Below, in pieces: positions 20,657 through 64,000 of a DNA stretch of 64,000 nucleotides. Origin of the DNA: Ensifer canadensis (lineage in GTDB: Bacteria > Pseudomonadota > Alphaproteobacteria > Rhizobiales > Rhizobiaceae); contig NZ_CP083370.1 of assembly GCF_017488845.2 (NCBI RefSeq), positions 992,001-1,056,000 of the forward strand. Reading direction: 5' to 3'. The notes below the pieces were generated by a model. That model was given only the letters and a program-made list of their open reading frames with translations. It had not been told where the DNA came from and did not search any database. Every line of letters begins with the position of its first letter. The stretch's first letter is position 1. The translations under genes were made by a program, and so were the position numbers.

Positions 20657-20708
20657 GCGTTTCGGCTGCCCTTGCAGCAGCGCGGTCTTTGGTCTACGGC
20701 TCAGCCCT

Positions 20709-20953
20709 GTTCTCAGGGCGGGGTGAAACTCCCCACCGGCGGTAAGGGCTCAGCGCCGCGCGTCAAATATGACGCGCAACGGACGCTGTGACACTTGAAA
20801 GCTGCTGCATAATTTTCTCCTTAAATCGGATTGGATTTAAGGAATTATGCAGCAGGCCCAAGCCCGCGAGCACTTCAGGCGCTGTCGTGTCGGAAGGTTA
20901 GCAGATCCGGTGCGATTCCGGAGCCGACGGTCACAGTCCGGATGAAAGAGAAT
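20709..20953 (+). promoter_or_regulatory. FMN riboswitch (RFN element) interrupted by a RIME-like repeat
   Basis: The conserved RFN blocks are all present in order: AGGGCGGGGTGAAACTCCCC and ACCGGCGGTA (20715-20744), AAGCCCGCGAGC (20860-20871), GCAGATCCGGTGCGATTCCGG and AGCCGACGGT (20900-20931), and AGTCCGGATGAAAGA (20935-20949). P1 forms from GTTCTC (20709-20714) with GAGAAT (20948-20953). Between the second and third blocks, where RFN elements carry a variable hairpin, lies a 107-bp RIME-like element, flanked by GGGC (20746-20749) and GCCC (20856-20859) that can still pair. Downstream, GGGTGCGAC (20960-20968) pairs with GTCGCATCC (20985-20993) and may be the expression platform. It controls the transporter gene that follows. 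Confidence 0.9.
20749..20855 (+). repeat. RIME-like palindromic repeat, copy B, inside the FMN riboswitch
   Basis: This 107-bp copy is near identical to those at 992-1098 (inverted) and 52814-52920. Hairpin 1 uses CAGCG and GCGCGTCA against TGACGCGC and CGCTG; hairpin 2 uses CTGCTGCATAATT against AATTATGCAGCAG with the inner CCTTAAATC/GATTTAAGG. It occupies the variable stem of the riboswitch. Confidence 0.85.
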
Positions 20954-21034
20954 GATCGTGGGTGCGACGGGCGGGCGGTCCGTCGTCGCATCCTGCGCTC
21001 ATGTGTCCTGATTTGTGTAGGTCCCTGTTTGCGG

Positions 21035-21943
21035 ATGAAGGACATGAGCGAGACGACCCAAGCACTTTTCACCTCCCGTGCCATGGCCGGTGCGGCCTGG
21101 ATGATACTGGCCGGCGTCGCCTTTGCTCTCCTGAATGTCGTCACGCAATGGATGACGATGCAACTCGGCTTTTCCGCCACCTCGACTGCCTTCTGGCAAT
21201 ATGCATTTGCACTCGTCTTCTCCCTGCCGTTCCTGTTTCGCGCCGGCCTGTCGGCCATGCGCACCGATTACCCCTGGCGTCACGTCATTCGCGTTGCCTT
21301 TGCGGCGCTCGGCGTAGGGGCCTGGGTTTCGGGCCTGGCTTCTGTTCCGATCTGGCAGGCGATCGCGCTGGTGATGACATCGCCATTTTTCATCATTCTT
21401 GGTGCGCGGCTCTTCCTGGGCGAACGCGTTGGTCCGGCACGCTGGGCAGCGGCGGCAGTCGGCTTTGCCGGCGCCACGATCATCCTGCAGCCCTGGTCGG
21501 AAAGCTTCACCTGGGCAGCGCTGCTGCCGGTTTTCTCGGCGCTGCTCTGGGGGGCGGCGTCGCTGATCACCAAGAGCCTGACAGGCATCGAGCGCCCTGA
21601 GACGATAACGGTCTGGTTGCTCGTGCTTCTGACGCCGATCAATGGTGTGCTGGCGCTGTCGGCAGGGTTTGTCGTGCCGAGTGGAACTATCCTTGCGCTA
21701 TTGGTGCTGGCGGGGCTTTTGACCGTGGTGGCACAGTATCTGTTGACGCTTGCCTATACCGTCGCAGACGCAGCGTATGTGCAGCCTTTCGACGATCTCA
21801 AGCTACCGCTCAACGTTCTCGCCGGCTGGCTCGTCTTCGGTTATGCGCCGAGCGGCTATCTGTGGCTGGGGGCGGTCCTGATCCTCGGCGCCTCGCTTTT
21901 CATCATGCGCAACGAGATGAAACGCGAGCGCGCGACCGCGTAA
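21035..21943 (+). CDS. ribN: Probable riboflavin transporter RibN (EamA/DMT family)
   Basis: The roughly 302-residue protein has about ten membrane segments in two EamA repeats (for example AWMILAGVAFALLNVVTQW, VGFAGATIILQPW, YLLTLAYTVADAAYVQPFDDLKLPLNVLAGWLVFGYAP). The family alone does not give the substrate, but the FMN riboswitch directly upstream does: RibN riboflavin importers of rhizobia are DMT proteins found under such switches. It should act in the inner membrane and be shut off when FMN is plentiful. The start is uncertain: ATG at 21035 or 21044 (MSETTQ); neither has a well-spaced ribosome-binding site. The frame also runs back into the riboswitch, which is not coding. Confidence 0.85.
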   Translation: MKDMSETTQALFTSRAMAGAAWMILAGVAFALLNVVTQWMTMQLGFSATSTAFWQYAFALVFSLPFLFRAGLSAMRTDYPWRHVIRVAFAALGVGAWVSGLASVPIWQAIALVMTSPFFIILGARLFLGERVGPARWAAAAVGFAGATIILQPWSESFTWAALLPVFSALLWGAASLITKSLTGIERPETITVWLLVLLTPINGVLALSAGFVVPSGTILALLVLAGLLTVVAQYLLTLAYTVADAAYVQPFDDLKLPLNVLAGWLVFGYAPSGYLWLGAVLILGASLFIMRNEMKRERATA

Positions 21944-33238: not shown

Positions 33239-33315
33239 GCGGGTGTAGCTCAGTCGGTTAGAGTGCCGGCCTGTCACGCCGGAGGTCGCGGGTTCGAGCC
33301 CCGTCACTCGCGCCA
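33239..33315 (+). tRNA. tRNA-Asp (anticodon GTC), copy 1
   Basis: The 77-nt cloverleaf starts GCGGGTGTAGCTCAGTCGG; the anticodon stem CCGGC/GCCGG holds the loop CTGTCAC (anticodon GTC). The T arm has GGTTCGAGCCC, the acceptor closes with CACTCGC, the discriminator is G, and CCA is encoded. Confidence 0.97.
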
Positions 33316-33390: not shown

Positions 33391-33467
33391 GCGGGTGTAG
33401 CTCAGTCGGTTAGAGTGCCGGCCTGTCACGCCGGAGGTCGCGGGTTCGAGCCCCGTCACTCGCGCCA
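33391..33467 (+). tRNA. tRNA-Asp (anticodon GTC), copy 2
   Basis: Identical over all 77 nt to the tRNA at 33239-33315, 75 bp downstream of it and probably on the same transcript. The pair is a recent or gene-conversion-maintained duplication. Confidence 0.97.
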
Positions 33468-52813: not shown

Positions 52814-52920
52814 TACAGCGCCGCGCGTCAAGTTTGACGCGCTCAGCACGCTGTAACACTTTAAACTTGCTGCATAATTTTCTCCTTAAATCGATGCCGA
52901 TTTAAGGAATTATGCAGTAG
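52814..52920 (+). repeat. RIME-like palindromic repeat, copy C (107 bp)
   Basis: Same orientation and length as copy B. Hairpin 1 has GCGCGTCA/TGACGCGC arms; hairpin 2 has CTGCATAATT/AATTATGCAG arms around CCTTAAATCG. It lies between mce and the DUF1467 gene, within what may be one transcript. Confidence 0.85.
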
Positions 52921-52989
52921 AATATCGCGAGGATCGTTCCGTTGAGGGCCAGTAGCCAGTTCGGGACAGGTCTTCATCAGGAGCCGGAA

Positions 52990-53354: not shown

Positions 53355-53522
53355 ACCGCTGCACAGGCCCGTAGAGTTCTCTCGGGTGCCTCTCTGCGCG
53401 AAACCCGGGCAATCCTACGATTGACCGCCCCGAAATTGACATAGTTCAAGAAAGCCCGGGTGCTCCGATGAGGGTTCGCTTGGCGAAAGGCAAAAAAAAA
53501 CAAGGCTAAAAGCCTTGTTTTT
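53355..53522 (+). ncRNA. Candidate trans-acting small RNA between DUF1467 and proS
   Basis: The intergenic region 53260-54039 (780 bp) is far longer than needed. TATTAT at 53343-53348 is a possible -10. CCCGGGC (53404-53410) can pair with GCCCGGG (53454-53460), and the segment ends at a strong intrinsic terminator (53496-53522) that serves neither flanking gene in an obvious way. This suggests a structured RNA of 100-170 nt. The position next to proS recalls the S. meliloti small RNA EcpR1, but I am not certain of that gene's location. The 5' end is a guess. Confidence 0.4.
53496..53522 (+). terminator. Intrinsic terminator in the DUF1467-proS intergenic region
   Basis: AAAAACAAGGCT (53496-53507) pairs with AGCCTTGTTTTT (53511-53522), loop AAA, with a T-run on both strands. 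It is about 240 bp beyond DUF1467, which makes it more likely the end of a separate small RNA. Beyond it, 53523-54039 shows TTGACA at 53722-53727, possibly the proS promoter, but no gene. Confidence 0.85.
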
Positions 53523-54039
53523 CAAGTATCGCGTGATCTTTAATCCGTTTCCGGCGGCAGCGACGAAGCGCGCCTAAGATCTTATCCTCCCAAGACTTGA
53601 CCGCGAAAGTCGGCAAGAATTTAGACTTCATGCCTGTTTTGTGAGCCGAAATTAGCCCAAACATTGGGCGATGTCACCTTATTTTTTTGCATTTTTGCTA
53701 CAGTTGGATAAAATTTCTCCGTTGACAAGCATCGTCGCAATACTGTTACTACCGTGCTCTTTTGACGCAGCTTTTGGCTTGTCGGTTCTCCTTCGAATCT
53801 CTCGATCCACTCTGTGTGGTTCCTTCTGCAAGCAGGGTTTTCATCCGGGCGCGAAGCGGCTATGAACGCAGGGCTCGGAAAGGTTCCTGCCGACTTGTCG
53901 GTGACGGAAATTTGAGAGCCGACCCCAAGAAGCAATGGTCGCCTTTGCCTGTTTTCGGCGAGACCGGCGTACCTGAGCTCAACGTCATTTCGCCCGAATC
54001 CGTCGATAGTGCGACGTTCATCAAGTTCTGGAACCCGTC

Positions 54040-63951: not shown

Positions 63952-64000
63952 CTACAGCGCCGCGCGTCTTATTAGACGCGCAAAGGTCGCTGTAGCACTT
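63952..64000 (+). repeat. RIME-like palindromic repeat, copy D, cut by the window end
   Basis: The first 49 bp of the same element: CTACAGCG, then GCGCGTC-TTATTA-GACGCGC and CGCTGTAGCACTT. The loop and inner pairs differ from the other copies but the arms still pair, which suggests that the hairpin itself is maintained. Confidence 0.75.

Follow-up and report, generated by a model that had tools for sequence, protein, structure and literature searches.

The window, a stretch of 64,000 nt from Ensifer canadensis (contig NZ_CP083370.1), contains an FMN riboswitch located ahead of a gene for an EamA-family transporter (Table 1). From its position behind the riboswitch, we take this gene to be ribN; in searches with its product, none of the NCBIfam models scored over its own cut-off and no curated ribN model was matched, and the closest named relative (from Ensifer sp. 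LC163) shows 97% identity. Upstream of the riboswitch are a Lon protease gene, over the curated cut-off, and a HU/IHF-family gene, which scores below the curated cut-offs and is presumably hupB. Downstream of the aptamer, a predicted hairpin spans the likely Shine–Dalgarno sequence (21038–21042) and the start codon (21044); because this hairpin would hide both, the predicted fold suggests that control of ribN is probably translational.

A cmscan search of the whole window placed all 138 positions of the FMN riboswitch model RF00050 in one match at 92.9 bits (gathering score, 66.2 bits), with 115 nt set against 12 model positions inside P3. The covariance model thus unites the two halves that the preliminary description had assigned to one aptamer; its expectation that a standard covariance search might score the element poorly did not hold, as the score is about 20 bits less than for an empty relative (L088, 113.7 bits) and still well over the cut-off. 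The conserved FMN blocks align, as had been stated, although P1, also described as intact, carries one non-standard pair in its outer part. An internal loop separates P3 (GCGG/CCGC) from an outer stem (GGGC/GCCC), the strands of which do pair across the insert in the minimum free energy (MFE) structure, as claimed, and the predicted fold of the insert agrees with the two self-contained hairpins proposed to stand atop that stem. The insert is indeed a repeat, with bounds that differ slightly from those first given (107 bp, 20749–20855). According to structural work, the L3 region of the FMN aptamer makes tertiary contacts, and the repeat is located beyond it. The element resembles RF00050 riboswitches in covering every model position, in scoring over the cut-off and in preceding an EamA-family transporter gene, but its outer P3 arm is a mobile repeat of 106 nt, not a tetraloop.

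Table 1. Features of the riboswitch leader and the gene behind it (positions in the window).
Feature	Position	Strand	Basis
Complete FMN aptamer (RFN element) including the insert	20705..20957	+	cmscan RF00050, 92.9 bits, model 1-138
P3, 5' strand GCGG (pairs with CCGC 20864-20867)	20739..20742	+	Consensus structure line, mapped
Outer P3 stem, 5' strand GGGC (pairs with 20856-20859)	20746..20749	+	Paired in MFE
RIME-type palindromic repeat, subfamily A, 106 nt	20750..20855	+	Repeat family, at least 41 genome copies; diagnostics and best matches
RIME hairpin 1	20751..20788	+	MFE of insert
RIME hairpin 2	20802..20855	+	MFE of insert
Outer P3 stem, 3' strand GCCC	20856..20859	+	MFE; stem comparison
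P3, 3' strand CCGC	20864..20867	+	Consensus structure, mapped
Predicted hairpin CGCTCATG-GTCC / GGACATGAGCG, candidate expression platform	20996..21050	+	Inferred from leader MFE and centroid
EamA-family transporter gene, taken as ribN by position behind the FMN riboswitch	21044..21943	+	ORF; Pfam EamA, 75.3 bits (cut-off 28.2)

The repeat is a member of a dispersed family. Within the window, a repeat finder recovered copies at 20751–20855 (+), 52816–52920 (+, 85%) and 992–1096 (−, 88%), and a partial copy at 63952–64000 is cut by the window end. RIME1 elements are about 105–110 bp long and comprise two palindromes. The insert folds as two hairpins with an MFE of −53.0 kcal/mol, and a search of the whole 8.09-Mb genome (G000) with one copy as query listed 51 matches, of which 41 are close to full length and the other 10 are short and lie antisense to copies already listed. 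These figures are minima: 40 of 272 first-look candidates were scored, and the true copy number is therefore higher than 41. Matches are present in all 16 Ensifer genomes searched. On its rhizobial host, length, paired palindromes and copy number, the repeat is of the RIME type and probably belongs to the Rhizobium-specific intergenic mosaic elements (RIMEs; Osteras et al., 1995, as cited in PMC2573895 and PMC2873474). The copy in the ribN leader differs from these in lying inside a structured regulatory RNA.

The arm was compared among relatives of the ribN product. Of 198 found, 80 were kept (69–97% identical in the best segment), and an FMN aptamer was measured near 77 of these; L021, L023 and L062 were left out of the P3 measurements, the loop of L023 being 14 nt in another reading. 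The P3 stretch is 16–20 nt in 71 of the 77 and longer in six, all titled Ensifer, at least four of which are the same genomes as G002, G008, G010 and G012 of the set of 16 Ensifer genomes. In each genome of that set, both the ribN leader and a paralogous FMN leader were read; the gene behind the latter encodes a lumazine synthase (NF009084, 249.3 bits, cut-off 160) and is named ribH2 from this model and from a Sinorhizobium meliloti listing in PMC2573895. Measured between fixed anchors, outer stem included, the ribN arm carries a near-full subfamily-A RIME in three genomes (116 nt in G000, 114 nt in G002 and 122 nt in G012), is a bare tetraloop of 14 nt in five (G003, G005, G007, G013, and G015) and is intermediate in eight (67 nt in G008, 66 in G014, 51 in G011, 46 in G004, 45 each in G001 and G009, and 29 each in G006 and G010). 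In the ribH2 leader, a full B-type RIME occupies the same loop in G005, G007, and G015 (arm of 114–115 nt), against a tetraloop arm of 16 nt in the other 13 genomes. Filled and empty alleles, the pattern expected of insertion, thus occur at ribH2, and at ribN they occur within one main clade (G000/G002/G012 vs. G005/G007/G013/G015).

The outer P3 stem is fully paired in 30 of the 32 leaders, the other two (both from G010) having one mismatch each, and the ribH2 leaders include the paired alternatives GATC/GATC, GGCC/GGCC, GGTC/GACC, and GAGG/CCTC. In related leaders, a short stem stands in place of the repeat on this same outer stem (e.g., GGGC-TTCG-GCTC), and none of the six leaders that carry a near-full RIME (three ribN and three ribH2) has a mismatch in the outer stem, in keeping with the proposal that the repeat extends a stem tolerant of length change. 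The observation in the preliminary description is confirmed and its interpretation supported, and the case is richer than first stated. In a tree of the 16 genomes built from five gene segments (3,587 aligned columns), the G000/G002/G012 clade has a support of 81, and the genomes with intermediate arms all belong to a single nine-member clade (support 100), which consists of these eight genomes and G003 (GGGC-GCAA-GCCC) and has partly low inner support (44–70). The series of arm lengths in the clade of nine fits insertion followed by erosion. One member, G006, has a ribN aptamer without its 3' half (L112, G006:C1:1017077-1017221; 29.3 bits) ahead of an open ribN frame, a natural riboswitch loss.

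The recurrence of RIMEs in P3 might reflect a general preference of the element for hairpin loops, a possibility that we consider doubtful. It receives some encouragement from two other structures: the loop of an intrinsic terminator is RIME-filled in G008, G001, and G009 (L279, L282, and L284) and short in the other 13 genomes, and an 11-bp hairpin has a RIME-filled loop in G008 and a short loop in G010. A loose energy test likewise ranked 9 of 132 RIME sites at 99% or higher against 1.3 expected (2–6 of 132 at eight sets of pseudo-sites; pooled Fisher p = 0.03), but orthologous sites were retained in this test, and two of the pseudo-site sets (z = −3.3 and −3.9) matched the mean effect at the RIME sites (z = −3.3). 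When likely orthologues were removed in a strict test, perfect stems of at least 7 were found at 3 of 128 sites vs. 45 of 4864 local pseudo-sites (p = 0.12). Nor did other riboswitches reveal the element: across the 16 genomes, 118 cobalamin and 62 TPP riboswitch matches yielded one long candidate, the remaining matches being judged by span alone in searches that very long inserts might escape. This candidate, a 406-nt cobalamin match in G004 (L264, G004:C34:465637-466042), was rejected as a RIME-bearing riboswitch, having no RIME inside; its span is about twice the usual, and its insert is something other than a RIME. Rfam scans of 40 RIME loci chosen from more than 60 placed none inside a known RNA family, and the same was true of four more (L203, L229, L250, and L257). 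A general preference of RIMEs for hairpin loops is thus at best weak.

The sequence of the aptamer core is conserved beside the insert. The three RIME-A leaders all score 92.9–94.2 bits, and they differ from one another at 3–5 of 84 core positions, compared with 2–4 of 84 among four empty sisters. Their arms have diverged by 6–12%, with small indels, against 12–25% at third codon positions of ribN and 3–9% in the nearby leader; measured against the third codon positions, this divergence indicates that the insert has persisted alongside a conserved core for as long as these species have been diverging. The modeled cost of forcing the core to form is 13.5 kcal/mol with the RIME, 12.0 kcal/mol with the short loop of a relative, and 13.3 kcal/mol with a reversed RIME, whereas it averages 15.9 kcal/mol for 300 shuffled inserts and 17.8 kcal/mol for 300 random stretches of the window. 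Of the shuffled inserts 21%, of the random ones 9%, and the reversed RIME as well cost no more than the RIME itself. In these models, therefore, the RIME appears to disturb the core little, yet it is not exceptional among inserts. When the full leader is folded without constraints, its MFE structure lacks part of the native core, and the predicted cost of 12–13.5 kcal/mol, with or without the insert, would have to be paid by tertiary contacts and ligand.

We propose that a mobile RIME took the place of the apical loop of the length-variable outer P3 arm in a common ancestor of G000, G002, and G012, and that the RIME would lengthen a peripheral arm rather than invade the core. The core could still form because the intact outer P3 stem holds the RIME and the RIME closes as two strong hairpins; on the simplest reading, a length-tolerant arm and a self-folding insert suffice. 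FMN binding and regulation would then still operate, with the insert neutral or nearly so. That the window holds a genuine FMN riboswitch ahead of a ribN-type gene, its loop replaced by a tolerated RIME in that ancestor, is in our judgment very probable.

Alternatively, selection might maintain the arm for a function, for example in slowing folding or as a site for an RNase or a protein. This is unlikely, although the arms persist across species and have diverged less than third codon positions in five of six pairs (G002–G012 being equal), and G015 contains two RIME matches at E 1e-12, one of which is its ribH2 arm (the query was itself a ribH2 copy). Such a role would sit poorly with arms that are short or gone in the relatives G003, G006, and G010, with the 13 ribH2 leaders that score over the cut-off without the arm, and with divergence that exceeds that of the nearby untranslated leader in four of six pairs. 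A second alternative is that the riboswitch is decaying, the insertion having inactivated or weakened it, and that the core is intact only for want of time. The half-aptamer of G006, in the other main clade, stands ahead of an open ribN frame and so indicates that ribN can do without a riboswitch, and the core differences are slightly higher in the RIME leaders than in the empty ones. We nevertheless regard decay as quite improbable, given that the RIME-A leaders have retained their scores across the species-level divergence seen at third codon positions, and that G006, the sole broken aptamer seen, is without a full RIME.

To assess the number of landings from sequence, 132 other RIMEs of these genomes were compared with ten arms, seven from ribN leaders and three from ribH2 leaders. 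For the A-type ribN arms (G000, G002, and G012), the 12 best matches are all A or of undetermined type. For the ribN arms of G008, G014, G011, and G001 and for the three ribH2 arms, the 12 best matches are B or undetermined, apart from one mixed copy in four of the seven lists; the B matches are weak for G011 (29 nt at 86%) and G001 (37 nt at 84%). Outside this comparison, the arms of G004 and G009 resemble that of G001 by eye, and we treat the arms of 29 nt in G006 and G010 as probable RIME remnants. The changes GTGAC and GAAAG are common to the three A-type arms and were not seen, by eye, in the other G000 copies listed. Because the ribN arms are of two types and ribH2 is a separate leader, the matches suggest at least three RIME landings in Ensifer FMN P3 loops: one of ribN-A, one of ribN-B and one of ribH2-B. 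As a back-of-envelope estimate rather than a test, a few thousand landings across the genus in nearly 1 million intergenic bases would by chance hit two loops of a few bases far less than once.

It is very unlikely that the ribN P3 loop was filled only once, in an Ensifer ancestor, with the A/B difference arising through gene conversion or divergence: the arm does exceed a tetraloop in 11 of 16 ribN leaders, the B-type remnants are partly weak and the 29-nt arms carry no type assignment, but A and B arms keep to separate best matches (at most one mixed copy per best 12), each main clade includes empty ribN leaders, outgroup loops are short, and the ribH2 leader is distinct from that of ribN and has another stem. 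Separate A and B landings at ribN, besides at least one at ribH2, remain our preferred reading. The ribH2 copies are 92–94% alike and lie in the same place, and their absence from G013, G000, G002, and G012 implies loss, recombination or more than one insertion. A single ribH2 insertion argued from shared private changes was rejected, as one of the changes also occurs in other B copies; there may have been one insertion or more. G013 is the sister of G005 (support 85), and its ribH2 leader has an intact GAAA loop (L111, L107, and L108 vs. L099).

In a family-wide survey, 199 genomes were searched and FMN matches were obtained in 113 under stricter filters. Outside Ensifer, four FMN spans exceed 190 nt. 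In one of these genomes, G087, which belongs to another genus, the P3 loop holds a palindrome (L146, G087:C12:53580-53782) that matches 10 further places among the matches listed (78–96% over 23–49 nt, E 8e-6 to 0.05), two of them being opposite strands of one spot; because the palindrome recurs elsewhere in its genome, the loop is probably filled by a repeat of another family. The FMN match in G168, which belongs to the genus of G087, is of ordinary span. G024 and G127 have long P3 loops (about 90–100 nt by eye), and the long stretch in G183 belongs to an arm other than P3. Tentatively, and with the balance of probability somewhat against so broad a claim, the outer P3 arm of FMN riboswitches in the rhizobia considered here may be a recurrent landing site for different repeat families, at which arms are extended and then trimmed; repeat invasion and erosion might then be a main source of the long, variable peripheral arms that count as neutral variation in riboswitch models, some of them perhaps in use.

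Palindromic repeats in structured RNA have a precedent in the Rickettsia palindromic elements of tmRNA and M1 RNA genes (Ogata et al., 2002, as retold in PMC2229807), which are likewise mobile and tolerated. The Ensifer case differs in three respects: the RNA that hosts the repeat is a riboswitch that senses a ligand, two paralogous leaders have each received insertions, and the series of arm lengths resembles shrinkage. PMC10969869 speculates that miniature elements (MITEs) might form riboswitches and mentions T-box-like motifs in BOX elements; there too a mobile repeat and a riboswitch are joined in one RNA, but the motif is proposed to arrive with the repeat, whereas the Ensifer repeat sits inside an older riboswitch. 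In the open-access literature searched, we recognized no account of a riboswitch that contains a RIME or a comparable repeat. The riboswitch host, the recurrence and the probable erosion across species would be what this case adds. The origin of variable arms in structured RNAs is rarely visible, and here a single genus displays the arm in bare, near-full and shortened form, with two paralogous riboswitches involved, as natural alleles with which the tolerance of riboswitches to large peripheral inserts becomes testable. There is also a caution for annotation: in at least one survey of rhizobial RNAs (PMC2573895), annotated RIMEs were removed from intergenic regions before prediction, and such removal could split RIME-bearing riboswitch leaders.

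Across several Ensifer genomes, RIMEs begin with TAC in 120 of 132 copies and end with GCAGTA in 91 of 132, mostly with C before and G after, a pattern that may hint at a TA target duplication or at palindromic ends. The whole-window Rfam scan gave five matches, the FMN riboswitch among them, and the alphaproteobacterial sRNA ar9 lies at 53492–53642 (−, 136.9 bits), about 570 bases from the RIME copy at 52814–52922. The window also contains two identical tRNA genes (33239–33312 and 33391–33464), whose starts are 152 bases apart and whose identity extends over 79 bases.
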